From Pedobacter hiemivivus (lineage in GTDB: Bacteria; Bacteroidota; Bacteroidia; Sphingobacteriales; Sphingobacteriaceae), in contig NZ_SJSM01000012.1 in the NCBI RefSeq assembly GCF_004331685.1, positions 1 through 64,000 of the forward strand: DNA of 64,000 nucleotides, in the 5' to 3' direction. Position numbers and translations under genes: made by a program. This document shows, one piece after another, positions 26,986-46,864 of the stretch (positions are counted from its first letter, which is position 1; each line of letters starts with the position of its first letter). The notes beneath the pieces are model-generated. The model saw only the letters and a list, made by a program, of their open reading frames with translations, did not search any database and was not told the origin of the DNA.

Positions 26986-27084
26986 CTATTTATTGAAAAA
27001 ACTATAGCTGCTGCCGAGCTCGTAATCGCCGATGGTATAACCTTGTAACGGTGATGTATTGGTGGTGTACAGGCATGATGAGTA
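26986..27084 (-). pseudogene. possible C-terminal gene remnant
   Basis: The minus strand reads TSPLQGYTIGDYELGSSYSF followed by FNK and a stop. It looks like a genuine protein C-terminus, but two stops end the frame after about 32 codons and there is no start. Family not recognised. Probably the leftover end of a deleted gene. Confidence 0.25.
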
Positions 27085-27173
27085 TCATCATAAAGCCTGT
27101 TCTCCGTCAATTAAATAAGGAAATATTAGTCCAAGATTTACAGGGTATTTCATCGCCATGCTATTGCTATAAA

Positions 27174-27632
27174 ATGATTAAGATCCGAATTGCTACAAAT
27201 CTTCTGAAAAGGCCATTTCTCTTGCTGTTTTTATTCATGTGGCCAATTTTTAGTTTTAAAAATATTAGCGCAGATCTTGAGAAATGGATTTTAACAAAAC
27301 AATGCACACTTAAAGTAAACGGTAGCACCAATATCAACAAATTCAGCTGTATCATTCCTGAGTATACTCAACCGGATACCCTGGTGTTTTATAAGAGGAA
27401 TAAGAATGAGCTGATGAAGATTACAGGATCAATGGCCCTTGAGGTCCAAAAGTTTGACTGCAAGAATGCGATGATGACTAGTGATTTGAGAAAGACGCTT
27501 AAAGCTAAGGTCTATCCGAAGATCATTATCCGGTTTCTAAATCTAAGTCGATATCCAGACCCTTCTATGAAAGAACGTGCCATCAGTGGTGCAGTAACCA
27601 TTGAACTTTCGGGAATAGTGAAGCGTTTTTAG
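27174..27632 (+). CDS. truncated YceI-like exported protein
   Basis: The 152-aa protein has a signal-like hydrophobic N-terminus (about 10-30) and then CTLKVNGSTNINKFSCII, DLRKTLKAKVYPKIIIRF and AISGAVTIELSGIVKRF. The order resembles the YceI lipocalin-like beta-barrel that carries isoprenoid ligands in the periplasm. It stops at GIVKRF, about 40-50 residues before a normal YceI end, although the full YceI gene at 28137 continues past the equivalent point. It may be a broken paralogue. The ATG at 27174 is preferred over the upstream frame start at 27051. Confidence 0.5.
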   Translation: MIKIRIATNLLKRPFLLLFLFMWPIFSFKNISADLEKWILTKQCTLKVNGSTNINKFSCIIPEYTQPDTLVFYKRNKNELMKITGSMALEVQKFDCKNAMMTSDLRKTLKAKVYPKIIIRFLNLSRYPDPSMKERAISGAVTIELSGIVKRF

Positions 27633-27684
27633 GTATAATAATCCCCTGTTTAATTCAGATGGAAACAGAGATATACTTTTCTAT

Positions 27685-27933
27685 TTGCACGCCTTTGTAA
27701 TCAGTTTTGCCTTATCCTGGTTTTGGGATCGCTTTAAGGGGCTATTCAATGGAGCCTTTATCTTAAGAGGGCTGGAATTCGGTTCTGTATACGCACTAGT
27801 CGCTTTACTGCCCGTGATGTGGATCACATTTAGTGCAATGGATGTTACTGCGTTGATGGTCCTCAGTTGGTTTCTTTATGGTTTCGCCCAGGCAATCATT
27901 GCCGGTATTTTATTTGCAAAGTTCAATCCTTAA
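27685..27933 (+). pseudogene. small membrane protein, probably N-terminally truncated
   Basis: About 82 codons encode two or three membrane helices (FVISFALSWFW; SVYALVALLPVMWITF; MVLSWFLYGFAQAIIAGILF). Its similarity to DUF1761-like Bacteroidota membrane proteins, which carry WDR-KG and a C-terminal YG..QA..AG motif, is tentative. There is no ATG: the frame opens with TTG and continues upstream into the broken YceI-like gene in another frame. Likely the surviving C-terminal part of a longer gene. Confidence 0.35.
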
Positions 27934-28046: not shown

Positions 28047-28060
28047 ATGATGATGATCAT
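28047..28060. promoter_or_regulatory. FNR-type palindrome before the YceI operon
   Basis: ATGAT-GATG-ATCAT, a perfect 5-4-5 palindrome of the FNR/FixK class (NTGAT-N4-ATCAN), centred 83 bases before the YceI start codon. A perfect -7 element (28105-28112) lies 55 bases downstream of the site centre. Matching sites occur at 33940 and 35425. Confidence 0.65.
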
Positions 28061-28104
28061 TATTTTGAATGTTTGAAATCATCGTGGGAGGAAAATCTTC
28101 ATTG

Positions 28105-28112
28105 TAATTTTG
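28105..28112 (+). promoter_or_regulatory. candidate -7 element of the YceI operon
   Basis: TAATTTTG matches the Bacteroidota -7 consensus TAnnTTTG exactly, 25 bases before the start codon. No TTTG occurs at the proper -33 spacing, which suits an activator-dependent promoter. Confidence 0.5.
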
Positions 28113-28136
28113 GTTAAATTATTTAATTAGAATATT

Positions 28137-28763
28137 ATGAAAAAGATGTTGTGCACTACGCTTCAACCTATCCGTTTTAAATACCTGATCGTTCTCATTT
28201 TTGTCGGTGTTGGGATCAGCAATAGCTTACAAGCACAGATTGTATATAAACTATATGGCGCTAAAGAAAATATCGTAAAGATCGCGGGCAAGTCAAACAT
28301 CCACGATTGGACGATGACGGCGGAAAATTTAGCATGTGATGCAAATTTCGGTCCCGTTTCCGGAGCGGCTGGGGTACCTAAAAAACTGATTTCACTAAAT
28401 TTTAGTGTGAAGTCTAAAAACTTAAAGAGCGAAAGTGAGTCTATGAATAACCGCACTTATAAAGTCATTAAGGCTGATGCCTATCCCGATATTGACTTTA
28501 AGCTCCGTGAAGCAACTATTTCAGCGCTGCAGAAAAATAAATTTTCAGTTGATGCAACCGGTACACTTACGATTGCGGGAGTTTCCAAGATCATTACTTT
28601 ACACGTAAATGGGGAAGTGAATGCTGATCATACCATTTTATGCACTGGTCAGCAAAAAATAAAGCTAACCGATTATGGCATACAGCCTCCCAGCTATATG
28701 CTCGGTGCCATGAAGGTGGGTAACGAACTGACCATCTTATTTACGCTCAATTTTAAAAAGTAA
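28137..28763 (+). CDS. YceI-family periplasmic protein
   Basis: The 208-aa protein has an N-terminal signal peptide (about 1-33, ending NSLQAQ) and a full YceI domain: IAGKSNIHDWTMTAENLACD, SMNNRTYKVIKADAYPDIDF, FSVDATGTLTIAGVSKII and GNELTILFTLNF. YceI proteins are lipocalin-like carriers of isoprenoid quinones or similar lipids. It starts an operon with a porin (30-base gap) and a CoA transferase and sits behind a perfect FNR-type site, suggesting induction when oxygen is low. Confidence 0.85.
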   Translation: MKKMLCTTLQPIRFKYLIVLIFVGVGISNSLQAQIVYKLYGAKENIVKIAGKSNIHDWTMTAENLACDANFGPVSGAAGVPKKLISLNFSVKSKNLKSESESMNNRTYKVIKADAYPDIDFKLREATISALQKNKFSVDATGTLTIAGVSKIITLHVNGEVNADHTILCTGQQKIKLTDYGIQPPSYMLGAMKVGNELTILFTLNFKK

Positions 28764-28793
28764 CCCGTTAAAAATAACTATAAATAAAAAAAC

Positions 28794-30173
28794 ATGAGAC
28801 TTAAAAATACCCAACGCTTAGTGCCCATAACTGTGTTAATGTGGATTTGCTTTATTCCGCTCAGTCAAGCGCAGTTTCAAAAAATAGACAATTTGAGACC
28901 CTATGACAAAACCGGTATCAATGTATTTGAAGATCCGAAAGATACGGTCACCACATTTGACGGATTAAAATTGAAATTTGGAGCTGGTTTTACACAGCAG
29001 TTTCAAAACCTGAAACATAAAAACCCAGACGCTTTGAACAACACAATAGGGTCATTTAATCCTCTTGTGGCAGGTAATAGGTTAAAAGTAATTACCCCCG
29101 GGTTTCAAACCGCCCAGGCTAACCTATATATGGACGTGCAATTGGCCGACGGGATTAGGTTAAACATTACCAGTTACCTTTCTACGAAGCATCACAATGA
29201 GAACTGGGTCAAAGGCGGATACATCCAGTTTGATAAGCTCCCTTTTAAAGGTCAGATCTGGGACAACATCATGAAAATCGCAACCCTTAAGATCGGACAC
29301 TTTGAGGTAGACTACGGTGATCAGCACTTTCGTAGAAGTGACGGAGGAAACGCGATTTATAATCCATTTATGGAGGGGAATATTGTCGATGAGTTTGCAA
29401 CAGAGATTGGCGGACAGGTCATGTTAAGGAAAAATGGTTTTTTTGGATTGCTGGCTGCAACCAATGGTATGATAAAAGGCAATATAGATTCATTGTATGC
29501 AGCCTCAAATCCTGATGGAGACTACCATAAATCTCCGTCAATACTGTTGAAAGCTGGATTTGACAAGCAAATCATGAAAGATGTGCGGGTAAGGGTTAGC
29601 GGATCTTATTATGGCAATCAAAGTTCCGGCGGAAATACCATTTTTGGCGGTGACCGCTCCGGATCTAATTATCAGTATGTGATGGAACTAAATTCTGCCA
29701 ATCCTAGCAGTACAACAGGTGCAGGTACCCCATTGGCATTCTCCGGCCGTTTTAACCCCGGGTTCAATAAAAAAGTAAACACGATTATGCTCAACGGTTT
29801 TTTAAAAGTAAAAGGGTTTGAATTGTTTGGAACCTACGAAACCGCTTCGGGAAGAACAGCTAAAGAAACAGACACGAGGAAAATGAAACAATTTGCAGCC
29901 GATGCGGTCTACCGATTCGGAAAAACCGAGAACTTTTTTATCGGTGCCAAATACAATACAGTTACTGCGCGTTTAGCCAATTCTGCAGCGATCACCTATA
30001 CTGACGACGTGAAAGTTGACCGCATTGCGGGAGCAGCGGGCTGGTTTTTAACTAGAAATATCCTTCTAAAAGGAGAGTACGTAGTCCAGAAATATAAAGA
30101 TTTTCCTATTCAGGATTACCGTGCCGGGGGCAAATTTAATGGATATGTGATAGAAGCAGTGGTTGGTTTTTAA
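28794..30173 (+). CDS. outer-membrane porin-like beta-barrel
   Basis: This 459-aa protein has a signal peptide (about 1-27, ending SQAQ) and a series of amphipathic strands typical of an outer-membrane barrel: LKFGAGFTQQFQNL, TAQANLYMDVQLADGIRLNI, FEVDYGDQHFRRSDGGNAIY, and a terminal strand ending VIEAVVGF with the aromatic C-terminal residue used for barrel insertion. It resembles OprO/OprP-like or generic Bacteroidota porins. Substrate unknown. It is the second gene of the YceI operon. Confidence 0.75.
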   Translation: MRLKNTQRLVPITVLMWICFIPLSQAQFQKIDNLRPYDKTGINVFEDPKDTVTTFDGLKLKFGAGFTQQFQNLKHKNPDALNNTIGSFNPLVAGNRLKVITPGFQTAQANLYMDVQLADGIRLNITSYLSTKHHNENWVKGGYIQFDKLPFKGQIWDNIMKIATLKIGHFEVDYGDQHFRRSDGGNAIYNPFMEGNIVDEFATEIGGQVMLRKNGFFGLLAATNGMIKGNIDSLYAASNPDGDYHKSPSILLKAGFDKQIMKDVRVRVSGSYYGNQSSGGNTIFGGDRSGSNYQYVMELNSANPSSTTGAGTPLAFSGRFNPGFNKKVNTIMLNGFLKVKGFELFGTYETASGRTAKETDTRKMKQFAADAVYRFGKTENFFIGAKYNTVTARLANSAAITYTDDVKVDRIAGAAGWFLTRNILLKGEYVVQKYKDFPIQDYRAGGKFNGYVIEAVVGF

Positions 30174-30225
30174 TGTAACTTGAAAAATAATTTAGCAAGA
30201 AAGATTTATAGAAATTAAGGCATTT

Positions 30226-31500
30226 ATGGAGTTAAAGCATACTGAAGCTGCAGAGGCAGTCAAATTAATTACATCGGGAAACAGGGTTTTTATTCATGGT
30301 GGCGCAGCTACTCCTGTCTTTCTGGTTAAAGCGATGCAGAATAGGCATACAGATCTTGAGAATGTCGAGCTGGTAAGTATTACGACTTTGGGAGATGTTG
30401 ATTTCGATACTGATATATATCGCAAATCATTCTTCTTCAATTCTTTATTCGTTTCTGCGGCAACCCGCGCAGTCGCCAATAGCAGCCGTGGTGATTATGT
30501 GCCTATCTTCCTGAGTCAGATTCCACAGTTGTTTTATGGGAATATTTTGCCAATTGATGTAGCTCTTGTTCAGGTATCTCCTCCAGACAAACATGGTTAC
30601 TGTTCTTTGGGAACTTCTGTTGATATTGCAAAGGCTGCTGTTGATACGGCTAAGATTGTGATCGCCCAGGTAAACGACAGAATGCCAAGAACCCATGGGG
30701 AAAGCTTTATTCATATAGACAAATTAGCAGCTTTAGTTTACCATAATGCCGAATTGCCAGAAGTAGATTATTCCTTTGCAGTTAATGATATTGTTGGTAA
30801 GATTGGATACAATGTGGCCTCGCTTGTTGAAGATGGAGCCACGTTGCAACTAGGAATTGGAAGCATTCCTGATCAGGTCCTCAAAAATCTTGGTGGACAT
30901 AAAGATCTTGGGCTACATACCGAGATGTTTTCTGACGGGATCATTGACCTGATCCATAAAGGGGTGATCAATAACAGCCTAAAGAAGTTGAATCGTGGCA
31001 GATCTGTCACTTCATTTATCACAGGTACTCGAAAACTTTACGATTTTGTTGATGACAATCCCTCGATTCGTGTGATGAACATCAGTTATGTGAATGACAC
31101 CAGCATCATCAGGCAAAATGCAAAGGCAACAGCGATAAATAGCGCAATAGAATTGGATCTCACTGGTCAGGTGTGTGCTGATTCTATAGGAACCTATCAA
31201 TATTCCGGTATAGGTGGTCAAATGGACTTTATGCGTGGTGCATCTTTATCTGAGGGTGGAAAGCCGATCATCGCACTGCCTTCTCAAACACAGAAAGGCA
31301 TTAGCCGAATCGTTCCGTTTCTTAAGGAAGGAGCGGGGGTGGTTACCACAAGAGGACATGTTCACTGGGTTGTGACCGAATATGGAATGGTAAATTTGTT
31401 TGGTAAATCTCTAAAGCAAAGGGCAAAGGCATTGATTGAAATCGCACACCCCAATCATCGTGAGATGCTAGACAAGGCATACTTTAGCCGGTTTGACTGA
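30226..31500 (+). CDS. acetyl-CoA hydrolase / 4-hydroxybutyrate CoA-transferase family protein
   Basis: The 424-aa protein shows the class I CoA-transferase pattern of the AcH1/Cat2 family: SGNRVFIHGGAATPVFLVKA, VQVSPPDKHGYCSLGTSVD, LQLGIGSIPDQVL, HTEMFSDGIIDL (containing the Glu that forms the CoA thioester), SGIGGQMDFMRGA and EYGMVNLFGKSL. It moves CoA between acetyl-CoA and short acids (acetate, 4-hydroxybutyrate, succinate). In the YceI operon behind an FNR-type site, with a semialdehyde dehydrogenase nearby, it suggests fermentative or C4 carbon handling at low oxygen. The exact acid is not determined. Confidence 0.85.
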   Translation: MELKHTEAAEAVKLITSGNRVFIHGGAATPVFLVKAMQNRHTDLENVELVSITTLGDVDFDTDIYRKSFFFNSLFVSAATRAVANSSRGDYVPIFLSQIPQLFYGNILPIDVALVQVSPPDKHGYCSLGTSVDIAKAAVDTAKIVIAQVNDRMPRTHGESFIHIDKLAALVYHNAELPEVDYSFAVNDIVGKIGYNVASLVEDGATLQLGIGSIPDQVLKNLGGHKDLGLHTEMFSDGIIDLIHKGVINNSLKKLNRGRSVTSFITGTRKLYDFVDDNPSIRVMNISYVNDTSIIRQNAKATAINSAIELDLTGQVCADSIGTYQYSGIGGQMDFMRGASLSEGGKPIIALPSQTQKGISRIVPFLKEGAGVVTTRGHVHWVVTEYGMVNLFGKSLKQRAKALIEIAHPNHREMLDKAYFSRFD

Positions 31501-31540
31501 TAAAACACAAATTATCCTGGATGGGGGAGTAATTGCTTAA

Positions 31541-32593
31541 TTAGTTCTTCATTTTTGCAAGTCTTTCCAGATCCAGTACAGTAATGGTTATGCCTTCACG
31601 ATCAATTAATTTTTCATTGTGGAAATCTGATAGGGTTCTACTTACCGTTTCGGTAGCCATACAGGCCATGGCTGCTAAGTCTTCCCTGGCAATGCTGAAA
31701 AAATCTTTTTTTACAATTTGCTGGTGATACAGGCGAAGAATGGCTCCGGCCATTTTTTTTCTGACTGAATCATAGGCCAGTTCTAGTAGTTGTTCTTCTT
31801 TTTCCTGGTTGTCACGAGATAAAAGATGAATGAACTTTCTTGCTACTTCGGGATAAAGGTTGATTAGCTTTTCAATTTCTTCTATGGGGATCAGGCAAAG
31901 TATACTATCCTCTATTGTGGTAGCAGTATCGGTATAGGCGCTTTTGCTTAAAATGGCACTGATGCCGAGATAATCCCCTATGCTATACATACCGGTCATG
32001 AGTTCACGTCCATCCTGTGAAAGCTTAATGGTTTTAACCTTACCCTGAGTAATCAGGTACAAACCTCTACCATGATCTCCTTCATAGTAAAGCACGTGGT
32101 TTTTCCTGAATTCATGGCCTTTATGACCTGCTATGATCTTGGTAAATTCTGCCAGTCCGTCTGTTTTGGAAACCAATACTTTGAACTCCTCTGTTATGTT
32201 TTTATTCTGAAGTTTCTGGTAGGCTTGTTTTCTCAGTCTAACATCGATAGCATTGAGCAGTTCAATGTCATCAAAGGGTTTGGTCAGGTAATCATCTGCG
32301 CCCATCTCCATTCCTTTGCGCAAGTCGTTGTGCTCAGCTTTGGCTGTTAAAAAAATAAATGGAATTGAGGTTGTTTCTGCATACCTGTTTAACATATACA
32401 ATACCCCGTATCCGTCAAGTTCAGGCATCATGATATCGCAAAGAATGATGTCTGGAATATGTTTTAAAGCCATTTCTACACCAACCTTGCCATTGTCAGC
32501 TTCAAAAACAGTGTATTTAGCCATTTCCAGGATCTCAACTATGTTCCCTCTTATGCCATCGTGATCTTCAATGATCAATATTTTTTTGTTCAT
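31541..32593 (-). CDS. response regulator: receiver fused to a Crp/FNR DNA-binding module
   Basis: The 350-aa protein has a receiver domain (1-120; phospho-acceptor Asp53 in LCDIMMPELD, Lys in the TKPF motif), a cyclic-nucleotide-binding-like barrel (about 150-265; VLYYEGDHGRGLYLITQGKV) and a Crp-type HTH (about 295-350). The recognition helix contains ETVSR (315-319), the Glu/Ser/Arg set that FNR uses to read TTGAT, rather than the CRP set. There are no FNR cysteines, so oxygen would be sensed through the partner kinase. Its start overlaps the end of that kinase gene by 4 bases, showing translational coupling. In effect FixJ and FixK are one protein. Confidence 0.9.
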   Translation of the reverse strand: MNKKILIIEDHDGIRGNIVEILEMAKYTVFEADNGKVGVEMALKHIPDIILCDIMMPELDGYGVLYMLNRYAETTSIPFIFLTAKAEHNDLRKGMEMGADDYLTKPFDDIELLNAIDVRLRKQAYQKLQNKNITEEFKVLVSKTDGLAEFTKIIAGHKGHEFRKNHVLYYEGDHGRGLYLITQGKVKTIKLSQDGRELMTGMYSIGDYLGISAILSKSAYTDTATTIEDSILCLIPIEEIEKLINLYPEVARKFIHLLSRDNQEKEEQLLELAYDSVRKKMAGAILRLYHQQIVKKDFFSIAREDLAAMACMATETVSRTLSDFHNEKLIDREGITITVLDLERLAKMKN

Positions 32594-33840
32594 GATTGTG
32601 GAAATGTGAGGGTAAAAAGCGTACCTCGGTTAATTCTGCTTTTGAAATCTACTTTACCATTCATCAGGTCGGTATATCTGGAAAGTATGCTTAATCCAAG
32701 TCCGTTACCAGAGATCTTTCCCGTATTGTGGGCTCGGAAAAATGGTTCACAAAGATGTTTCTGATCTTCAATAGGTATTCCGATGCCATTGTCACAAATT
32801 CTGATGGTGCAGTTGTTTTCATTGATTTTGGTGTAGAATTGTATGGAACTTTCTTCGCCAGAGTATTTTATAGCGTTATCAATGAGTATAACGATGCAGT
32901 TTTTTAAGAGTGTTTGGTCTAGTGTGATCATCAATTCCGAGCCTCTATGCACGAAAACTATTTTCTGTCTCCCATTTAATGCAATCTGCATCTCCTCAAT
33001 AATTTCTGCAGCGAATTCTGCCAAATTAAAATGGCTGAATTTGGCCTGTACTTTCCCTGTATCCAATTTTTCGAGGGAAAGGAAATCATTCAGAATTGCA
33101 GTAACATTCTGTACAGCATCTTTTATCTTGCCTACATGTTTACCGATATTGGGACTGTCAAAAGGAAGCGCATAGCGTTCAATAAGTGATGCAGAAAGCT
33201 GTACCATACTCAAAGGTGTACGGAATTCATGTGATGCAATGGAAACGAACCGACTTTTAAGCTTACCCAATTCCTGTTCTTTTGCCAGTGATAAGCTCAA
33301 TTCCTGTTGTGTTTGTTCCAAGGTAAAAACTGTATTATGTAAGTTTTCAATAGAGAGGTTCAATTCAGCTTTTGTCTGCTCTAAGGCATCAACGGTTTCC
33401 CGAAGGGAAACCGTACGCTCTTGTACCTGATCTTCCAGCGACGTTGCATAATCCTGAAGTTGTGATTCGGCTTCTTTTTCCCTACTCAAGTCATGAATAA
33501 AACCAGCATAAACGACCCTTCCAGAGTACCTGACTTCACTGACACCCAATCTAAAAGGAAACTGACTTCCATTTTTTCTCATGCCGGTCAATTCTCTTCC
33601 AATACCAATAATGCTGGCGTCACCAGTTTTTTTATAACGAAACAGGTAACCGTCATGATACCCCCGATCAGGTTGTGGCATTAGCATAGATATATTTTTT
33701 CCAAGTACTTCTTGCTCGGTATAGTTGAAAAGTTTGCAGGCAGAGGGATTAATGGATTCAATTACCCCTTGGTCATCTATTGTGATCAGACCGTCTATCG
33801 CATTGTCGATAATCGCTTTCAGCAAAACGGAATTTTCCAT
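32590..33840 (-). CDS. FixL-like heme-PAS sensor histidine kinase
   Basis: This 416-aa cytoplasmic kinase has a PAS domain (1-120), a coiled coil (about 123-195), HisKA with His204 in IASHEFRTPLSMV, and a HATPase (LIDNAIKYSGE, DNGIGIP, GNGLGLSIL). The PAS keeps the FixL heme features at identical spacing: His62 (axial ligand, FixL His200), Arg68 (Arg206) and Arg82 in IIGIGRE (Arg220, the oxygen-contact residue). By homology it binds heme and loses kinase activity when O2 is bound. No membrane helix, as in Bradyrhizobium FixL. It is encoded with, and just before, its likely target regulator. Confidence 0.88.
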   Translation of the reverse strand: MENSVLLKAIIDNAIDGLITIDDQGVIESINPSACKLFNYTEQEVLGKNISMLMPQPDRGYHDGYLFRYKKTGDASIIGIGRELTGMRKNGSQFPFRLGVSEVRYSGRVVYAGFIHDLSREKEAESQLQDYATSLEDQVQERTVSLRETVDALEQTKAELNLSIENLHNTVFTLEQTQQELSLSLAKEQELGKLKSRFVSIASHEFRTPLSMVQLSASLIERYALPFDSPNIGKHVGKIKDAVQNVTAILNDFLSLEKLDTGKVQAKFSHFNLAEFAAEIIEEMQIALNGRQKIVFVHRGSELMITLDQTLLKNCIVILIDNAIKYSGEESSIQFYTKINENNCTIRICDNGIGIPIEDQKHLCEPFFRAHNTGKISGNGLGLSILSRYTDLMNGKVDFKSRINRGTLFTLTFPQS

Positions 33841-33851
33841 AAAATAGGGTT

Positions 33852-33870
33852 ACAGATCATACTAATCTGT
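33852..33870. promoter_or_regulatory. second palindrome before the sensor operon
   Basis: ACAGAT - 7 bases - ATCTGT, perfect arms, 12 bases before the kinase start codon on the minus strand. It does not match the FNR-type motif and could be a different operator or an RNA hairpin in the 5' leader. Confidence 0.35.
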
Positions 33871-33939
33871 TCTATACCTACAATCTGTAGGCGGTTTTGT
33901 TTTAATTATATGGGATGATGATGAGTATCTTCTCTGTAG

Positions 33940-33953
33940 ATGATTCCCATCAT
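33940..33953. promoter_or_regulatory. FNR-type palindrome between sensor operon and aldehyde dehydrogenase
   Basis: ATGAT-TCCC-ATCAT, a perfect 5-4-5 palindrome centred 68 bases before the aldehyde dehydrogenase and about 106 bases before the divergent kinase. An imperfect copy, ATGAT-GAGT-ATCTT, lies 22 bases away (33918-33931). Could serve both directions, including autoregulation. Confidence 0.65.
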
Positions 33954-34014
33954 TTCCCAGGTTGGCGATTACGCGGACCTTTATGCTTTATCTACCAAAT
34001 AAACAATCCACATT

Positions 34015-35397
34015 ATGGCTATACAAACCGTTAATCCTTTTAGTAACGAACTTATTAAAAGTTTCAAGGAAATGTCTCCGGAAGTGGTGGCGGTCGAAAT
34101 TTCTATTGCTGATGAAACTTTTCAAAGCTGGCGTAAAACCACTTATGCAGAACGGGCAGATCTCCTACACGGTGTCGCAAAATTGATGCGGGAGCAAAGA
34201 GATCAACTATCTAAATTGATTACATTGGAGATGGGTAAATTAATCGCTCAAAGCTATGGAGAGATCGCCCTTAGCGCCGATATTATAGACTATTATGCTA
34301 CAAATGGGGAAGCCTTCCTAAGTGACCAAAAGTTGGAAACTGAATATGGTGAAGCTTATATTAAGAGCACTCCAATTGGTGTGCTACTTGGAGTTGAACC
34401 TTGGAATTTTCCTTTTTATCAGGTCGCTCGTTTTGCTGCACCTAACATTATGGCAGGTAATGTTGTGTTAGTTAAACATGCTTCGAATGTTCCGCAATGT
34501 GCATTGGCAATTCAGGAGTTGTTTGCACAGGCTGGTGCACCAAAAGGTCTATATACAAATTTATTTGTCAGCGGAAGCCTTATAGATGATGTAGTAGCTG
34601 ATCCACGGATTAAAGGCGTTTCTCTTACCGGCAGCGAAACTGCTGGTGCAAGTATTGCCGCTGCTGCAGGAAAATTTCTAAAGAAATCGGTGCTTGAACT
34701 TGGCGGTAGCGATGCCTTCATTGTTTTGGAAGATGCGGATCTGGATAAAGCGGTGGATTGGGCCGTTATAGGACGCATGAACAATACGGGCCAATGCTGT
34801 GTGGCTTCAAAAAGGATTATTGTACTGGAAGCAGTTGCTGATGAGTTTTTGGATAAGTTCAAGGCTAAACTAACTGGGTTAAAGGTTGGAGATCCAATGG
34901 ATGAGGACACAGAATTAGGCCCTTTAAGCTCAGAAGGAGCAGTTATACAGTTGATTGAACAGGTACAGCGAAGTGTGAGGGCTGGTGCAAAGGTATTGTT
35001 AGGTGGTAAACTGATTGATCGAAAAGGTGCATTTATAGAGGCTACCATATTAGGTAATGTTAAACCTGGCATGGCAGCGTATCATGAAGAATTATTCGGA
35101 CCGGTGGCTTCGTTTTACAGAGTTAAAAATGAGCAGGAGGCGATTGATCTGGCAAACGACTCATCTTTTGGTTTGGGTGGGAGTATTTTTACCAATGATA
35201 TCGAGCGTGGAAAACGCTTGGCTGAACAGATTGATACCGGTATGGTATTTATCAATCATCCGACCTGGACCCAGCCTGATCTGCCTTTTGGCGGAACTAA
35301 GGGGTCCGGCTATGGAAGGGAATTGTCCAGCCTAGGCATACAGGAATTTGTCAATAAAAAACTGATTCGGATCAGCAATTTAACAGACCCTTTTTAG
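34015..35397 (+). CDS. succinate-semialdehyde dehydrogenase-like aldehyde dehydrogenase
   Basis: 460 aa of a short-form ALDH resembling YneI/Sad and GabD-type enzymes: PIGVLLGVEPWNFPFYQV, GSETAGASIAAAAGKFL, the Glu in LELGGSDAFIVL, and the catalytic Cys in NNTGQCCVASKRII. It oxidises succinate semialdehyde or similar aldehydes with NAD(P). It differs clearly from the ALDH7 enzyme at 14.7 kb. It is monocistronic behind a perfect FNR-type palindrome, which links it to the neighbouring oxygen-sensing pair. Confidence 0.85.
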   Translation: MAIQTVNPFSNELIKSFKEMSPEVVAVEISIADETFQSWRKTTYAERADLLHGVAKLMREQRDQLSKLITLEMGKLIAQSYGEIALSADIIDYYATNGEAFLSDQKLETEYGEAYIKSTPIGVLLGVEPWNFPFYQVARFAAPNIMAGNVVLVKHASNVPQCALAIQELFAQAGAPKGLYTNLFVSGSLIDDVVADPRIKGVSLTGSETAGASIAAAAGKFLKKSVLELGGSDAFIVLEDADLDKAVDWAVIGRMNNTGQCCVASKRIIVLEAVADEFLDKFKAKLTGLKVGDPMDEDTELGPLSSEGAVIQLIEQVQRSVRAGAKVLLGGKLIDRKGAFIEATILGNVKPGMAAYHEELFGPVASFYRVKNEQEAIDLANDSSFGLGGSIFTNDIERGKRLAEQIDTGMVFINHPTWTQPDLPFGGTKGSGYGRELSSLGIQEFVNKKLIRISNLTDPF

Positions 35398-35424
35398 TCG
35401 GCCGGGGTTTTTAAATCTCTGCAG

Positions 35425-35438
35425 ATGATCTATATCAT
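35425..35438. promoter_or_regulatory. FNR-type palindrome before the hybrid kinase/Usp operon
   Basis: ATGAT-CTAT-ATCAT, a perfect 5-4-5 palindrome about 145 bases before the hybrid kinase. A near copy, ATGAT-AGCG-GTCAT, is centred 22 bases downstream (35447-35460). CATCTTTG (35483-35490), one base off TAnnTTTG, lies 55 bases from the first site centre, the same spacing as at the YceI operon. Confidence 0.6.
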
Positions 35439-35576
35439 AACAACTGATGATAGCGGTCATTAGAAAAGTAAGGATGATGCCTCATCTTTGGATAAATGGC
35501 GCGTATGCCACGCTGATGATCACGTATATAACTGATTAAACAATCGATTAACATATTTTTTTAGCACTCAAGATAT

Positions 35577-38240
35577 ATGTCATTTACAATAGATAATTTT
35601 GATCTTTCTGTTTTTTTTAAGGAGATACCTTGTGTCGTTTTTAGAATTCATGAAGATGAAGGCCGTTTTTCTTTTTCATTTGTCAGCGCTGCAATTGAAC
35701 GGGAATTGGAATTGAATCCAATTTTATTGATTAACGATATTGAAATATTGTTGGATCTCTTGTCCCAAAAGCATAGGGAATCATTTCTAAGTTCATTGGA
35801 AAGCGCAGTACGTCGGTCAATCCCCTGGAAATGGGAAGGCTATTTTAATTTACCTTCAGGTAAGAAAAAATGGATACAAGGTTTGGGCGAAATAAGCCGT
35901 TCAAGTAAAACTACTATTGATTGTTTTTTTAAGGATATTACGGCAGAGAAGCGCATCTTCGATATGTTTACTGAAACGAGTAAACTCACTAAAACGGGCT
36001 CCTGGGAGTTGGATTTACTTACGAATCACCTTTTGTGGTCCGATGAGGTATATGCAATCCATGAGGTTGAACCGAAAATAGTACCGGAGTTAGATCATGC
36101 ACTTAGTTTCTATTCTGCTGAAGGCAGGGAAATGATCATCAATTTAATCGGAAAGGCGGTAAAAAGTGGAGAGTCCTGGGATGTTGAAGTTTCTTTTGTT
36201 ACCGCCAGAGGTAATGACAGGTGGGTTCGGACATCAGGGAAAGCTGTTTTCGAAAATGGAATTGCAGTTAAACTGCATGGGATAATTCAGGATATCACAG
36301 AAAAGCGTCTTTCTGAAGAAATCTTCAGTGTGATCTTTAAATATTCAACTGATGCTCATTTTTTGTTTGGAACAAAAGGGATAATTGACTGTAACGATGC
36401 GGCTATTGCGATGTTGAACTGTAGCAATAAAGCGGAATTACTCGCTTGTCATCCGGCAGATTTTTCTCCTAAGTATCAGCCAGATGGTAGGCTTTCGAGT
36501 GAAAAGTCTTTGGAAATGGACAACCTGGCCTACAAAAATGGCTATCATCAATTTGAATGGCTGCATAAGCGGATTAACGGAGAGACTTTTACAGTACTGG
36601 TAACATTAAAACCTGTGAACATAAATAGTAAAACTGTACTGTTAACAGTATGGCACGATATTACAGAACAGAAATACCGGACAGAATTAATCAAGCTCAA
36701 CCAGATATTACTTTCCGAGACCCAGGAATTGACACATAGCGGGAGCTGGGAAGCTGATCTGGTTACGGGCAAGAACTATTGGTCTGATGAAGCCTTCCGT
36801 ATTTTTGGATTGATTCCAGAAAAGGAAGGACCAAATACCCTGAGTTTTGGAAGAATGATCCATCCTGATGATAAGGAAACTTATAAGAGGGTAGTTCAAA
36901 ATACAATTGATGATCGAGTGATGTCTGATTTTAATTTGCGTATCATTTTATCTGACGGACAAATCAGGTATATCCGTGCCATAGGTAAGCCGCTTATTAA
37001 TGAATCTGGAGAAGTGACTAAACTGTACGGTGCTATAGTCGACATAACAGCCCAGAAAAATGCAGAGAATGAGTTGATTATGGCAAAAGATCTCGCTGAA
37101 CAAGCTGCTACTGCAAAATCCCAATTCCTGGCTACCATGAGTCACGAAATCAGGACCCCTATGAATGCGGTAATTGGTTTTACCAATTTGCTTTTGTTGA
37201 AAGATCCCAATCCTGAGCAACTGGAATACTTGAAAGTATTAAAATTTTCAGGCGACAATTTATTGGTATTAATCAACGATATCCTTGATTTTAGCAAAAT
37301 GGAAGAAGGTAGGGTAACCTTTGAGATGATTGATTTCAGTATACCGGAATTGCTGAAAAATATCCGCCTCTCTTTATTGGAAAAAGCTAAGGAGAAAGGG
37401 CTGGAGTTGAAGCTGTCCATAGACGAGGAGTTATCAGAGGCCGTTATGGGCGATCCTGTTCGTCTGGGACAAATCTTAACTAATCTGATCAACAACGCGA
37501 TTAAATTTACATCTAAAGGCAAGGTCAGCATTTCTGCTTTTTTTGTTAGCAGAAACAAGGTTCAAACCATCATTGATTTTGAGGTGACGGATACTGGTAT
37601 TGGTATACCGAAAGATAAAATGGAATTCATCTTTGAAAGATTTACACAGGCAAATGCGGATACCAACAGGAAATATGGTGGAACCGGCCTGGGACTAGCT
37701 ATTACAAAGAGACTTGTTGAGCTACAGGGCGGGAATATACAGGTAGAGAGTACGCCTGAGGTTGGTTCCAGTTTTAAATTCGGTTTGAGCTTTAGAAATG
37801 GTAGTAATGAGTCAATTATTGCGGGGGAATCAATTCCGGTAAAAGCTTTGAAAAATTTAAAGGGAATTAAAGTACTGATGGCCGAGGACAATGAAATTAA
37901 TGTAATTTTAGTAAAGCAGTTTATGAAATTCTGGCAGGTAGAATGTGATGTGGTAGGAAATGGTTTGCTTGCCTTACAACAGGTACAACTAAGGGATTAT
38001 GATATGGTCTTTATGGATCTGCAGATGCCCATTATGGATGGATACCAGTCTGCAACAGCCATCAGAGCCTTGTCCGGAGACAAATTTAAGAGGCTACCAA
38101 TAATAGCGCTGACTGCTTCAGCCATGTTGGATGTTCAATACAAAGCATTTGATTCGGGTATGAATGATTACATCAGCAAGCCATTCAAGCCCGAAGAACT
38201 TTACCATAAGATAGAAATTTACGGCTATGAACCGAAATAA
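35577..38240 (+). CDS. PAS-rich hybrid histidine kinase with receiver
   Basis: The 887-aa cytoplasmic protein has three or four PAS/PAC repeats (residues 1-490; each ends with a DIT-x-K/Q segment), HisKA with His near 523 in ATMSHEIRTPMNAVIGF, a HATPase (NLINNAIKFTSKG, DTGIGIP, GGTGLGLAITKRL), and a C-terminal receiver (about 765-880; phospho-acceptor Asp near 812 in VFMDLQMPIMDG). Without a membrane helix it senses internal cues. It has no DNA-binding domain, so it must pass phosphate on or bind partners. The Usp gene follows after 39 bases and is likely co-transcribed behind the FNR-type sites. Confidence 0.9.
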   Translation: MSFTIDNFDLSVFFKEIPCVVFRIHEDEGRFSFSFVSAAIERELELNPILLINDIEILLDLLSQKHRESFLSSLESAVRRSIPWKWEGYFNLPSGKKKWIQGLGEISRSSKTTIDCFFKDITAEKRIFDMFTETSKLTKTGSWELDLLTNHLLWSDEVYAIHEVEPKIVPELDHALSFYSAEGREMIINLIGKAVKSGESWDVEVSFVTARGNDRWVRTSGKAVFENGIAVKLHGIIQDITEKRLSEEIFSVIFKYSTDAHFLFGTKGIIDCNDAAIAMLNCSNKAELLACHPADFSPKYQPDGRLSSEKSLEMDNLAYKNGYHQFEWLHKRINGETFTVLVTLKPVNINSKTVLLTVWHDITEQKYRTELIKLNQILLSETQELTHSGSWEADLVTGKNYWSDEAFRIFGLIPEKEGPNTLSFGRMIHPDDKETYKRVVQNTIDDRVMSDFNLRIILSDGQIRYIRAIGKPLINESGEVTKLYGAIVDITAQKNAENELIMAKDLAEQAATAKSQFLATMSHEIRTPMNAVIGFTNLLLLKDPNPEQLEYLKVLKFSGDNLLVLINDILDFSKMEEGRVTFEMIDFSIPELLKNIRLSLLEKAKEKGLELKLSIDEELSEAVMGDPVRLGQILTNLINNAIKFTSKGKVSISAFFVSRNKVQTIIDFEVTDTGIGIPKDKMEFIFERFTQANADTNRKYGGTGLGLAITKRLVELQGGNIQVESTPEVGSSFKFGLSFRNGSNESIIAGESIPVKALKNLKGIKVLMAEDNEINVILVKQFMKFWQVECDVVGNGLLALQQVQLRDYDMVFMDLQMPIMDGYQSATAIRALSGDKFKRLPIIALTASAMLDVQYKAFDSGMNDYISKPFKPEELYHKIEIYGYEPK

Positions 38241-38279
38241 CTAACAGATAAACCAGTTGAAACTCCTATTCCTGAACTT

Positions 38280-39167
38280 ATGAAAACACTACTTTTATTA
38301 ACCGATTTTTCAACTGCTGGAAACCATTCGGCTGAATATGGCTATAACCTTGCAAAAGTTTTGAATGCCAATGTTATTCTATGCAATGCTGTTACTATTC
38401 CCGCCCAGCTTTCTGAAGTTGGCGACATAGATTGGCCATTGATTGGATACGATGGCGTTATTGACGATAGTGATGAGGAGCTCAAAAAGTTAAAGAAACA
38501 TTTTGAACATACAGATCGCAGCTCAGGCTTTCACCCACAGATCAGCACCTTCAACCAAACAGGAAGGCTGGCAGATGTGGTGGAAAATGTAATGCAGGGT
38601 TGCAATGCAGACATGGTCGTAATGGGTACTCACAGAAAAGGGATTGCTCATTTTTTGTTGGACAATAATTGTAGAAATATGATTAATGCAACCTCCTGCC
38701 CATTGCTCCTGATTCCTCCGCACGCAGTTTTTCGTGACTTTGGTAAAATAGCTTTCGCTACAAATTTTGAATATCCACAGCAAGATTTTGAGGACATTTA
38801 TAAGCTAATACGGATAGCCAATATATTTCGTTCGGATATTTTGGTAACCCATATACATGCAGCGCATCCTCAAAGTGTAGACCATCAACATATAGTAGAT
38901 GAACTGCTTACCGGTATATTTAATAAAGCAAATTATCCAAATATTTTCTATAAATCTGTTGAAAATGAAGATATCGGGACGGGACTGAATTTGTTTTGTG
39001 AAGACCAGCAGATTGGTTTATTGGTCATGGTCCATCGGCCGCATGATTTTTTTGATATTATTTTGAAAGGTAGTCATACACAACAAATGGCGGCAAATAT
39101 TACCATTCCATTACTTGTTTTACCAGACGGCAACAAATCACCAGCTTGCAAGGCTAGTACTACTTGA
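38280..39167 (+). CDS. universal stress protein, two Usp domains
   Basis: The 295-aa protein has two Usp repeats. The first (about 1-145) opens with TLLLLTDFSTAGNHSAEYGY and contains VMGTHRKGIAHFLLDN, the G-2x-G-9x-G(S/T)-like region in degenerate form. The second starts near IAFATNFEYPQQD. Usp proteins bind ATP or AMP and build up under growth arrest and low oxygen. It lies in the hybrid-kinase operon. The last residues (GNKSPACKASTT) run into sequence that matches a BON-gene start on the other strand, so the natural C-terminus may have been altered by a deletion. Confidence 0.85.
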   Translation: MKTLLLLTDFSTAGNHSAEYGYNLAKVLNANVILCNAVTIPAQLSEVGDIDWPLIGYDGVIDDSDEELKKLKKHFEHTDRSSGFHPQISTFNQTGRLADVVENVMQGCNADMVVMGTHRKGIAHFLLDNNCRNMINATSCPLLLIPPHAVFRDFGKIAFATNFEYPQQDFEDIYKLIRIANIFRSDILVTHIHAAHPQSVDHQHIVDELLTGIFNKANYPNIFYKSVENEDIGTGLNLFCEDQQIGLLVMVHRPHDFFDIILKGSHTQQMAANITIPLLVLPDGNKSPACKASTT

Positions 39168-39193
39168 TCTCTAAGTTCTTCATCAGTTTTCAT
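39139..39193 (-). pseudogene. start of a BON-domain protein, truncated
   Basis: From ATG 39193 the minus strand reads MKTDEELRDQVVLALQAG, a close match to the beginning of OsmY-like BON proteins (MKTDxxLrxDVxxEL). Homology ends after about 17 codons, where the frame enters the antisense of the Usp gene. BON genes usually sit next to Usp genes in Bacteroidota, so this is most likely a deletion scar. Confidence 0.4.
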
Positions 39194-39221
39194 GGGAATG
39201 GTGATTTTGGTAGGATTATTT

Positions 39222-40010
39222 TCAGATGCCGGAAAATTCAGTTTTATTAAGCTCAACAGATTTGATACTACCTTTAAAGTATTCGTAGTCGCCATTGTCT
39301 GTATGCCAGGTTGCGCTAAACTTAGTTGGGAATCTGATCCCCTTTTTTAAGATATAATCATTAGCCGTTGCCGTCCATGGGGTCTTTTGATATTTGTTGT
39401 TTTTTTTTGCCCGATACCTATCCTGTGTTGTAAATTGTGTGCAGTCACCATGCTCGTTGAAATGAAAAATACCACTTGCCGAAATGCCATTATGATGGAT
39501 GATTCCTTTTATATTTGAAGGATCAATAACTTCCCAGGTGATGTATTTTTGCAAGGCATAATGTGGGATAATCATGGTTTCGGCGAGAATAGTCACCAGC
39601 TCGGCAGCATCCATTTCTTTTCCTTTTGCATTACTTATAGGAATCATTTTTAGTAGCTTAACCAGCATTTGTCCTTGTGCGTCTTTATAAATATCAACGG
39701 CCTCTAATGGAAATAAACCATACCATTTGATACTCATGTATACTAACCTTACAGGTTCGCTTAGAAAATTCAGCTGGTAACAGCGCATAGAACTCCAATT
39801 TGCCTGGGGGCTGAGCCTAAGTGCGGTGTCGTTCCATTTAATGTGGGCACATTCAATCTTTTCCTGCCCTGTATAGCCACAACGATGGAAAAATTTTTGC
39901 AGCAATTCCGGTAAAGTATTAAAATCGTTTGAAAGGGCAGGGGCTGCATATGCAGAATATTGACCTGCTGAATTGACTGCTTTTAAAAATGTGTGCCTAA
40001 GGTTTTCCAT
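39222..40010 (-). CDS. DUF6544-like protein
   Basis: The 262-aa protein reads LPELLQKFFHRCGYTGQEKI, QANWSSMRCYQLNF, FPLEAVDIYKDAQGQMLVKL, then DRYRAKKNNKYQKTPW and a final region ending GDYEYFKGSIKSVE. This follows the pattern of DUF6544/DUF6920 proteins, often annotated next to stress genes, with no known function. No signal peptide. It starts 20 bases after the upstream Usp gene on the minus strand, so the two form an operon. Confidence 0.6.
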   Translation of the reverse strand: MENLRHTFLKAVNSAGQYSAYAAPALSNDFNTLPELLQKFFHRCGYTGQEKIECAHIKWNDTALRLSPQANWSSMRCYQLNFLSEPVRLVYMSIKWYGLFPLEAVDIYKDAQGQMLVKLLKMIPISNAKGKEMDAAELVTILAETMIIPHYALQKYITWEVIDPSNIKGIIHHNGISASGIFHFNEHGDCTQFTTQDRYRAKKNNKYQKTPWTATANDYILKKGIRFPTKFSATWHTDNGDYEYFKGSIKSVELNKTEFSGI

Positions 40011-40030
40011 TGGAAACAGTTTTTTATGGT

Positions 40031-40519
40031 TTAAAGTCTAAGAAAATCCATTTCGGGGACGATGACTACAGGACATCTGGCTTTCTTTACCACTTCTTTG
40101 ATTTCTGTTCCAAAAAGAAAGTCATCGTTATTCCTTGCTTTAAATCCGCTCATAACCAGCATGAAAATATTCTTCTTTTCTTCAATAATGCTACATACAT
40201 TTTCCGCTATACCACCACCTTCGCTCAAATAGTCAATTTCAGGTTTGAAATTAGTGGTAGATGTTTTGATACTGTTATTTAAACGATTCATCTCTTTTTC
40301 CAAGTTTGATTTACTAGTTTGTGCCAATGATTGGTAATCATTGATCTGCAGGGACTCAAGTTCTGAGACAGAAATATAGTAGGAGTGAAACAACAATATA
40401 TTTGTCTTTAATTGTACCGCTAAAAATAAGGCGTAGTCTGCTGCATTTAATGCGCTTTTTGTAAAGTCAGTGAGTACAATAACTGTTTTTGTATGATCTA
40501 AATCTTTCGCAGTTTTCAT
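40031..40519 (-). CDS. universal stress protein, single domain
   Basis: The 162-aa protein opens with KTVIVLTDFTKSALNAADYA and contains VMSGFKARNNDDFLFGTEI followed by CPVVIVPE, a single Usp fold. The glycine-rich ATP loop is only partly kept. It heads a two-gene minus-strand operon with the DUF6544-like gene. An FNR-type near-palindrome (TTGAT-GGCT-ATCAG) lies 112 bases upstream, so it may belong to the same low-oxygen regulon as the Usp at 38280. Confidence 0.85.
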   Translation of the reverse strand: MKTAKDLDHTKTVIVLTDFTKSALNAADYALFLAVQLKTNILLFHSYYISVSELESLQINDYQSLAQTSKSNLEKEMNRLNNSIKTSTTNFKPEIDYLSEGGGIAENVCSIIEEKKNIFMLVMSGFKARNNDDFLFGTEIKEVVKKARCPVVIVPEMDFLRL

Positions 40520-40630
40520 GGGATACTTAATTTAGTTAAGATGCATGGGGTTTCACAGTAATGAATTGTAGATCAGCAGCCACGGTTTTAGATTTATATA
40601 CAAAGATTCTGGTAATATTTTGTTATAACC

Positions 40631-40644
40631 TTGATGGCTATCAG
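40631..40644. promoter_or_regulatory. FNR-type near-palindrome before the second Usp operon
   Basis: TTGAT-GGCT-ATCAG, one base from the classical TTGAT-N4-ATCAA FNR/FixK box. A further imperfect dyad (GATGATG-TT-CGTCATC) lies at 40652-40667. Confidence 0.5.
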
Positions 40645-40699: not shown

Positions 40700-41986
40700 T
40701 TATTGAATTTTATCTAAAACGATAAATACCTCTGAACCTGCTCTTGCTGCAATGCTGTTATAGCATTTTTCCATTGTCTTAATGTCAAAATAAGGGCTGA
40801 AAATAGCTTTGTACTCAGGACTGGAGCCACCAAATGGAGGACCTTCTCTGTCAAATATTTTATCAAAAAGTAACCCGATTATTTTTCCTTTTTCATGGAG
40901 TAATGATGCTGTTTTTTTGGCATAGTTTTTTCTTTTGTCTGGTAGAATCGCACAAAAGAATGTTTGCTCGATGATGAGATCGTATTGTCCTTTATGCTGA
41001 AAAAAATCTTCAGCCAATACCTTTACTTGTGAATTGTGCTCAAATTTATGACGTATTTTTTTAACAGCTTCCGGTGATATATCAATCAAAGTAATGTTCG
41101 TGAATCCATTTTCTACTAAGTATTCCGCTTCATATGCATTGCCACAACCAGGTATTAATATAGAAGCATTCTTATTGGGATATTGGTCCAGATATTGGCA
41201 AATGGCAGGTGAAGCATGACCAATATCCCAGCCAATTGTATTGCTTTGCCATTTAGCATCCCAATATTGTTTGCCGGATAGTTTATCTTGGGATTGTTCA
41301 GGATCCTGTTCTGTTGATATGCCCATTGTGTTTAAATCTAATATTTCAATAACATGGTTACCAAGGTAAATACTGTTGCTTAAACTTCTTCTATCATCTG
41401 CAATAAAAGACATATAGACCTGAAGTTGCAAGCCTTTTACTTCTGCAGGCAATTCTAAAAAATCTGTCCCTTCTGTCATGCGTGCGCCAGAAAATAGGTA
41501 ATATGATTTTCCTGTTTCTTGGGCATAAACCAACAACATTACCCGTGCGCCTCTGTCGCTCCAGTTTAATGAGGTGTTGTAGCTCCAGTTAAAACGAACA
41601 CCATTGCCTTCAGCCATTGCTTCTGGATTTAAAGGCAGCTCGATGGTTCCTTGAGTTAAACGTGCTGCAGCGTAGTTAATGCTGATGTCGGGATATTCGC
41701 CTTGAACTGCATGTAGTAGTTGGTAGGATTTAGCTGCATTGTTGGGCGAAATGGGTTTGCCCTGGGCAGCTTCTTCAAAGCCTATTCGAACATAATCCGT
41801 CATACTGTTGACGAAATTATTCACTACTTCCATTCTCTTTCTTTGGATTTTTTCTCTTGGGGTTGGGGGAGTGGTACGCTTTCTTTTCTTTGTCCTAACA
41901 TAAGCGATTCCATATCTTACATAACCCTCTACTGGACCGAGATTACCATTAAAGCCGCCCAAAATACCATTCTCAATTCTTGCCAT
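40700..41986 (-). CDS. DUF6266 protein fused to a TPMT-type methyltransferase
   Basis: The 428-aa protein joins two families. Residues 1-213 are a full DUF6266 protein (MARIENGILGGFNGNLG; GYVRYGIAYVRTKKRKR; LLVYAQETGKSYYLFSGA; SNSIYLGNHVIEI), a Bacteroidota family of unknown role normally of about this length and alone. Residues about 237-428 are a thiopurine-methyltransferase-like enzyme (YWDAKWQSNTIGWDIGHASP; SILIPGCGNAYEAEYL for SAM; IIEQTFFCAILP; FGGSSPEYKAIF), normally a separate protein. The 23-residue linker has no stop, so the reading frame is continuous. It could be a natural fusion or a deletion joining neighbours. The methyltransferase probably acts on thiols, selenium/tellurium or halides. 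Confidence 0.8.
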   Translation of the reverse strand: MARIENGILGGFNGNLGPVEGYVRYGIAYVRTKKRKRTTPPTPREKIQRKRMEVVNNFVNSMTDYVRIGFEEAAQGKPISPNNAAKSYQLLHAVQGEYPDISINYAAARLTQGTIELPLNPEAMAEGNGVRFNWSYNTSLNWSDRGARVMLLVYAQETGKSYYLFSGARMTEGTDFLELPAEVKGLQLQVYMSFIADDRRSLSNSIYLGNHVIEILDLNTMGISTEQDPEQSQDKLSGKQYWDAKWQSNTIGWDIGHASPAICQYLDQYPNKNASILIPGCGNAYEAEYLVENGFTNITLIDISPEAVKKIRHKFEHNSQVKVLAEDFFQHKGQYDLIIEQTFFCAILPDKRKNYAKKTASLLHEKGKIIGLLFDKIFDREGPPFGGSSPEYKAIFSPYFDIKTMEKCYNSIAARAGSEVFIVLDKIQ

Positions 41987-46825: not shown

Positions 46826-46864
46826 TTTTGTTGAGCGTGTCAAGTTATTTTGTTGAGCGTGTCA
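46826..46864. repeat. 22-bp-period tandem duplication over a stop codon
   Basis: TTTTGTTGAGCGTGTCA occurs at 46826-46842 and again at 46848-46864. The second copy encodes the cyclase end (PDTLNK) and the first contains its stop codon. A 22-base unit is not a multiple of three, so the duplication set the present stop. Confidence 0.75.

Follow-up and report, generated by a model that had tools for sequence, protein, structure and literature searches.

What reads the palindromes that crowd around a regulatory gene pair in Pedobacter hiemivivus, and what do they control? The stretch analysed, referred to here as the window, is the first 64,000 bases of contig NZ_SJSM01000012.1, and the whole genome (6.58 Mb) was scanned alongside it. 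A preliminary description had taken perfect ATGAT-N4-ATCAT words in front of several operons as sites of an FNR-like regulator and as the mark of a local low-oxygen regulon. We consider it very likely that the palindromes are operators of a two-protein system, in which a FixL-like heme kinase would signal to a response regulator fusing a receiver domain to an FNR-type part (REC-FNR), and which would control a local low-oxygen regulon. This reading draws on domain make-up, similarity to heme PAS domains, the motif itself, the phasing of operators and promoters, and gene linkage, all of which are read from the sequence. A local regulon, the operator geometry of CRP/FNR proteins and a probable low-oxygen signal are kept from the preliminary description, while FNR as the sensor and a second universal stress protein (Usp) operon as a target are given up.

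Clustering of the palindromes

The pattern ATGATNNNNATCAT is present at 28047, 33940 and 35425, as described earlier, and all three places lie outside genes. A fourth perfect ATGAT-N4-ATCAT, at 27075, had been overlooked; it falls inside an open frame starting at GTG 27051, and an alternative start at ATG 27174 would possibly place it upstream of a small gene. The chance expectation was taken from 100 dinucleotide shuffles of the window, which held the perfect word 0.20 times on average and never reached the four that were observed, so the earlier figure of 0.06 per 64 kb was too low, although the excess itself holds. The genome has 38 such places (16 for the word read backwards), and four of them fall within a span of 8,363 bases, where 0.043 would be expected at the rate found elsewhere (P for four or more, 1.4e-7). 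When 38 places were put down at random, four lay that close together anywhere in 122 of 200,000 runs. On these three counts the clustering of the perfect sites is real. The near matches reported at 33918, 35447 and 40631 also exist, and each of the first two has a perfect site at a distance of exactly 22 bases, but the third scores -0.3 on a matrix built from orthologue loci; it was rejected as an operator, leaving the second Usp operon without support as a target.

Scanning the whole genome, with genes taken as open frames of at least 100 amino acids, went against the word as a genome-wide marker, and we rejected it as such: 72 of the 86 RTGAT-N4-ATCAY places lie in open frames (27075 included) and 14 outside, and 14 of the 15 stricter matches examined (of 18) are likewise in open frames. 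Probable functional sites are marked by clustering at the regulator loci together with a fixed distance to the promoter -7 box. The coding counts could be cited in favour of chance, the word simply recurring because it is frequent in genes, but that explanation is hardly credible against the clustering, the first rank of the word in a de novo search of orthologue loci, and the exact spacing of sites from the -7 box and of twins from each other, the last two of which are given below.

The probable operator in orthologue loci

For the orthologues of the regulator we assembled 80 loci (L079-L158), taking up to 10 kb of flanking DNA on either side, 1,506 kb in total and 153 kb of it between genes, and all 5-mer inverted repeats with gaps of 0-12 were counted in the intergenic DNA. 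ATGAT-N4-ATCAT ranked first, with 40 sites between genes and 9 in genes, and the same 5-mer at any other gap gave 0-4 intergenic sites each. Over all DNA of the loci, only T runs with gap 9 were more frequent (52 vs 49). The degenerate form RTGAY-N4-RTCAY is matched 211 times between genes, in 69 loci, and 48 times in coding sequence, compared with means of 4.4 intergenic and 23.3 coding matches for 119 other half-site orders, the top ones of which (96, 80, 42 and 39) are overlapping relatives of RTGAY-N4-RTCAY. The word had been called FNR-type, but the canonical FNR/FixK form TTGAT-N4-ATCAA occurs once between genes, against the 40 sites of ATGAT-N4-ATCAT, and four times in coding sequence. 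A mixed ATGAT/TTGAT form has 10 intergenic matches, and A and G dominate the outer bases. The probable operator is RTGAY-N4-RTCAY, unlike the FNR word.

Distances to the -7 box and between sites

Sigma-A promoters of Flavobacterium carry TAnnTTTG at -12 to -5, according to the available text of PMC9723704. Around the orthologue sites, a -7 box matching at least 5 of 6 bases lies exactly 51 from the site centre in 59 of 205 gene-facing flanks and at 29 in 28 of them, with a median of 2 over the offsets; for the plain consensus the counts are 72 and 51 of 291 flanks. When the loci were split into L079-L123 and L124-L158, offsets 51 and 29 came out on top in each half, and a phased box is found in 121 of the 291 flanks and in 60 of the 80 loci. 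By the -12 rule these offsets predict operator centres at about -63.5 and -41.5. A third, smaller peak was seen at offset 26 (16 of 291 flanks, L079-L158).

Secondary sites scoring at least 4 were sought 8 to 60 bases from a strong site, and a spacing of 22 was counted 23 times, representing 19 pairs because four were counted from both sides. The next most frequent spacing was 42 (8 times), and the others occurred at most twice. Within the window, 28047 and 35425 fit this geometry well, and the -7 element described near the YceI site, TAATTTTG, is indeed perfect and lies 51 from the centre of 28047. The fit of 33940 and 27075 is weak, and their boxes are suggestive only, as 110 of 1,892 octamers in the window intergenic stretches tested reach 4/6 (17 reach 5/6). 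Applied to the four boxes of 28047, 33940, 35425 and 27075, the -12 rule would put transcription starts near 28117, 33988, 35495 and 27145, respectively.

The receiver-FNR regulator

The regulator consists of a receiver, a cyclic-nucleotide-binding fold and a Crp-type helix-turn-helix (HTH) by Pfam. Receiver residues E9, D10, D53, T83 and K105 and HTH residues E315, S318 and R319 are invariant in 82 aligned sequences, and the recognition helix ETVSR is found in all 80 orthologues. The hallmark of FNR is an N-terminal cysteine cluster for its [4Fe-4S] centre. Since 79 of the 80 orthologues have no Cys in their first 45 residues (CxxC occurs anywhere in 3), this regulator is not an oxygen-sensing FNR, and the earlier label of an FNR-like regulator gives way to that of a response regulator with a receiver domain. 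A true Fe-S FNR regulon, with the regulator itself sensing oxygen, would fit the CRP/FNR fold, the ETVSR helix and the phmmer matches to FNR (5cvr) and FixK2 (4i2o), but the N-terminal receiver, the absent cysteines and the scarce use of TTGAT sites make it very improbable, and we rejected it on the missing cluster.

An AlphaFold model made from 82 sequences (predicted local distance difference test, pLDDT, 84.8), which superseded one made from 14 (pLDDT 65.5), matches CRP-family structures including FixK2 4i2o, with a root-mean-square deviation of 1.8 and a template-modelling (TM) score of 0.89 by target length. The cyclic-nucleotide-binding fold, Crp HTH and inverted-repeat operator place the protein in the CRP/FNR superfamily. 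FixJ is a receiver joined to a LuxR-type HTH, and FixK is a stand-alone protein without a receiver domain. The present regulator has the receiver of the former but its output is HTH_Crp_2, and it differs from the latter by its N-terminal receiver with the invariant D53. No receiver-CRP fusion appears by title among the 50 solved structures listed, and the closest named relatives among the matches listed are from Pedobacter cryoconitis and Pedobacter sp. N36a (85% identity). The window that holds this cyclic-nucleotide-fold regulator also encodes a protein with an adenylate/guanylate cyclase catalytic domain (46840-47988, - strand).

The FixL-type kinase

The kinase gene overlaps the regulator gene by 4 bases. 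An upstream open frame is present in 76 of the 80 orthologue loci (none in 4), and the residue aligned with His200 of BjFixL is His in 71 of the 76 frames, while that aligned with Arg220 is Arg in 74; the window kinase has both. In the FixL heme pocket these are the proximal His and the distal Arg. Of the five frames without His, one lacks the stretch in question, two seem to be neighbouring genes without relation to the kinase, and two are Dyadobacter kinases that carry Gln. Against the NCBIfam equivalog of rhizobial FixL, NF041777, the kinase scores 150.8 bits where the cut-off is 850, and it is therefore a relative of rhizobial FixL and not its equivalog. It has no recognised membrane domain, and by a simple pattern test the two other PAS kinases of the window lack the FixL heme pattern. 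The kinase of FixL is active without oxygen. We infer that the present kinase would bind heme, pass phosphate to the regulator and bring about activation at low oxygen, and the oxygen signal most likely enters through this adjacent heme-PAS kinase. Elsewhere in the window, 3478-6711 (+) encodes a CheB-CheR-PAS-HATPase protein.

A second pair, the cbb3 oxidase and other genomes

The same genome has a second kinase-regulator pair (on C34), which adjoins a cbb3 oxidase operon. Two genes follow the pair on the same strand, one encoding a hydroxyacid-dehydrogenase domain and the other a radical SAM gene that is presumably hemN-like. Two sites stand before the C34 kinase gene. A twin site 22 apart, sharing one box GAACTTTG (5/6; at 51 and 29), precedes fixI-, fixNO-, fixP- and fixG-like genes (Pfam), and fixNO has another site of its own 93 bases upstream (score 14.1). 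The second pair probably controls the oxidase operon. The intergenic region with the twin operator is common to the fixI-like gene and a divergent PycTM gene of the Pycsar effector family (L069:1923-3101).

We then compared 121 genomes of the family, counting the regulator as present at E 1e-60 or better. For the longer form of the motif the density was 1.50/Mb (control 1.00), an excess, in the 86 genomes with the regulator and 0.91/Mb (control 1.14), no excess, in the 35 without it (Mann-Whitney p 0.0016, kinship ignored). The regulator is accompanied by the fused cbb3 subunit CcoNO in 80 of the 121 genomes, and both are missing in 25 (Fisher p 1.3e-12, again ignoring kinship); they lie within 15 kb of each other in 50 of the 65 genomes that have both on one contig. 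At the same threshold, close relatives of the regulator are present in at least 56 of the 395 Bacteroidota genomes sampled, probably a lower bound because five candidates were scored per genome.

Observations that weigh against this reading

Several observations speak against a REC-FNR regulon of this kind. The intergenic and coding counts depend on crude open-frame gene calls, and the statistics on motif excess and on co-occurrence with CcoNO ignore shared ancestry. No intergenic RTGAY-N4-RTCAY site is found in 11 of the 80 loci, 170 of the 291 flanks have no phased box, and 20 of the 80 loci have no phased site. Outside the two regulator loci most genome matches lie inside genes, and of the 8 remaining intergenic matches tested just 1 has a phased box. 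In the window, the -7 boxes of 27075 and 33940 match just 4/6 bases, and from 33940 no phased box faces the kinase gene; the same is true of both sites before the C34 kinase gene. The aldehyde dehydrogenase site is not kept at the same place before the four relatives of that gene in the orthologue loci, and no site above 6.5 precedes any of nine relatives of the small gene at 27174. Of 92 ccoNO matches, 30 loci were examined, and a site stands immediately upstream of the gene in 7 of them and is phased in only 5; in the P. hiemivivus genome the oxidase operon starts further upstream with fixI. Lastly, the two Dyadobacter kinases (L153 and L154) have Gln in place of the heme His and keep the Arg, and perhaps represent a lineage with a lost or changed heme ligand.

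Three further proteins with a CRP/FNR-type HTH are above the Pfam cut-off in the genome (at C26, C7 and C1) and might bind similar sites. The sites could then belong to another CRP/FNR regulator that co-regulates the same physiology, with the REC-FNR pair just a neighbour and a target. Such sequences are bound by CRP/FNR proteins generally, and the kinase gene is itself often a target, with sites before it in 34 of 75 orthologue loci. We nevertheless regard this as unlikely, as the motif excess tracks the presence of REC-FNR over the 121 genomes (subject to the same caveat on kinship), the sites cluster at both copies of the pair in this genome, and the motif is kept in orthologue loci from several genera. 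The 3-kb loci of the Crp-type proteins contained no sites in a scan that was also empty at both true pairs. That the REC-FNR regulator, and not another protein of the superfamily, binds the sites is what we infer from these distributions.

Proposed mechanism and related systems

In the mechanism that we propose, the heme PAS domain of the FixL-like kinase would sense oxygen, and as oxygen falls the kinase would phosphorylate the receiver domain of its partner. A dimer of the regulator would then occupy RTGAY-N4-RTCAY operators centred at about -63.5, -41.5 or both in promoters with the sigma-A box TAnnTTTG (-12 to -5), in some promoters with two operators exactly 22 bases apart, and activation would follow the class I and class II modes of CRP/FNR proteins. 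The FixL/FixJ/FixK cascade would in effect be condensed into two proteins. A more elaborate and rather doubtful version is a two-input switch of Bacteroidota, in which a phosphorylated receiver is combined with a second ligand in the cyclic-nucleotide-type fold, two dimers spaced by 22 bases form a cooperative AND gate at the promoters of cbb3, fermentation and stress genes, and one protein replaces FixJ and FixK.

In E. coli, CRP and FNR act from operators centred near -61.5 (class I) or at -41.5 (class II). The predicted downstream operator here is also at -41.5, whereas the upstream one is at about -63.5, the box is TAnnTTTG, twin sites are 22 apart and phosphorylation is the likely trigger. 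The rhizobial FixL/FixJ/FixK cascade resembles the system proposed here in having a FixL-type heme PAS kinase and a CRP/FNR-type final activator, and in that cbb3 genes and a radical SAM gene (putatively hemN-like) are linked to the second pair; FixK sites precede cco operons and hemN in the account available from PMC4999443. Unlike in rhizobia, there is no separate FixJ and FixK, the receiver being fused to the FNR/FixK-type part, the promoters are those of Bacteroidota, and the site is RTGAY-N4-RTCAY and not the FnrN/FixK consensus TTGANCNNGATCAANG given in the same text (PMC4999443). The hFixL-FxkR-FixK systems of R. etli and R. leguminosarum are wired differently for the same oxygen signal (PMC4999443 and PMC7888657, as far as their available text goes). 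There the kinase is the hybrid hFixL and a response regulator, FxkR, acts on fixK, whereas here the kinase adjoins the final activator and no intermediate was seen.

Among Bacteroidota, Flavobacterium psychrophilum raises its cbb3 oxidase and heme synthesis at oxygen limitation, by the available text of PMC9723704, and shares with the present system the link to the cbb3 oxidase and the sigma-A box TAnnTTTG at -12 to -5. The words FNR, Crp and FixL are absent from the main text of that paper, as are 'receiver' and 'response regulator' from the main text of PMC12531629. No title or abstract among the literature matches listed describes a FixL-type kinase paired with a receiver-FNR fusion, although subscription papers may describe such a system. 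The best reading is that the pair is a new variant of the FixL/FixJ/FixK theme. If so, the textbook three-protein oxygen cascade would have a two-protein form in many Bacteroidota, and the operator, promoter rule and list of targets that come with it would be open to immediate testing in laboratory strains.

Target genes and other features

Three operons of the window, those of YceI/CoA-transferase, aldehyde dehydrogenase and hybrid kinase/Usp, are probably switched on by the regulator (Table 1). Among the 14 Usp relatives listed (of 22), 11 have a site scoring at least 8.8 that lies 44-86 bases ahead of the gene start, and a site 66-95 bases ahead is present in 6 of the 12 loci with a YceI relative. 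None of the 80 orthologue loci holds a relative spanning 60% of the hybrid kinase. The 27174 small gene has relatives in 9 of these loci. Sites also stand before Usp genes in 11 of 23 loci, CcoNO in 7 of 18 and BON genes in 7 of 20, as well as before genes for a PPDK/PEP-synthase-type enzyme, OsmC, acetate kinase, phosphoketolase, alcohol dehydrogenase and Hsp20.

Table 1. Features of the window assigned to the putative regulon, with positions in the 64,000-base stretch
Feature	Position	Strand	Basis and remarks
Possible operator ATGATGAGTATCAT	27075-27088	+	Score 13.8
Weak -7 box AAGATTTA	27133-27140	+	4/6; 51 from centre of 27075
Small gene	27174-27632	+	No Pfam match
Operator ATGATGATGATCAT (predicted)	28047-28060	+	Score 17.7; centre 51 before perfect -7 box (~-63.5)
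-7 box TAATTTTG of YceI operon	28105-28112	+	6/6
Probable target operon YceI/unmatched protein/CoA-transferase	28137-31500	+	Pfam, NCBIfam
YceI	28137-28763	+	First gene of operon
Unmatched protein	28794-30173	+	Second gene of YceI operon; no Pfam or NCBIfam match
Butyryl-CoA:acetate CoA-transferase-like	30226-31500	+	TIGR03948, below its cut-off
Response regulator, REC-FNR fusion	31541-32593	-	PF00072, PF00027, PF13545
Sensor kinase, FixL-type heme PAS + HisKA + HATPase	32590-33840	-	phmmer E 3.1e-30 to BjFixL heme PAS 1dp6
Second, weaker operator ATGATGAGTATCTT (predicted)	33918-33931	+	Score 7.7; 22 upstream of 33940 (~-63.5)
Operator ATGATTCCCATCAT (predicted)	33940-33953	+	Score 18.0; centre 29 before weak -7 box (~-41.5); between aldehyde dehydrogenase and kinase
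Candidate -7 box GACCTTTA of aldehyde dehydrogenase promoter	33976-33983	+	4/6; suggestive
Aldehyde dehydrogenase, probable target	34015-35397	+	PF00171; nearest NCBIfam succinic semialdehyde dehydrogenase NF006915, 528.5 bits, below cut-off 730
Operator ATGATCTATATCAT (predicted)	35425-35438	+	Score 15.1; centre 51 before -7 box (~-63.5)
Second operator ATGATAGCGGTCAT (predicted)	35447-35460	+	Score 7.1; 22 downstream of 35425 (~-41.5)
-7 box CATCTTTG of hybrid kinase/Usp promoter	35483-35490	+	5/6
Hybrid PAS sensor kinase, first gene of probable target operon	35577-38240	+	Pfam
Usp with two Usp stretches, second gene of probable target operon	38280-39167	+	Pfam

Of the 8 intergenic genome matches tested away from the two regulator loci, the only one with a phased box is an isolated ATGATAGCTATCAT at C44:1973 (L071). 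Its box, CAACTTTG, lies at offset 29, and the gene that follows, of the PTPS family, is possibly a further member of the regulon. Two more candidates in the window were rejected. The acetolactate decarboxylase gene at 45603 was dropped as a target with a candidate site at 45219 that scores 4.2, and the sequence at 27814 (GTGATGTGGATCAC), despite its score of 16.7, was dropped as an operator, being inside an open frame of 82 amino acids and without a phased -7 box. The region 27634-27933 (+), between the small gene and YceI, is a small membrane-protein-like open frame without a Pfam match that holds this sequence, and it is possibly a decayed gene. Finally, a single open frame at 40700-41986 (-) joins DUF6266 in its first half to a TPMT-type methyltransferase in its second, an unusual-looking pairing.

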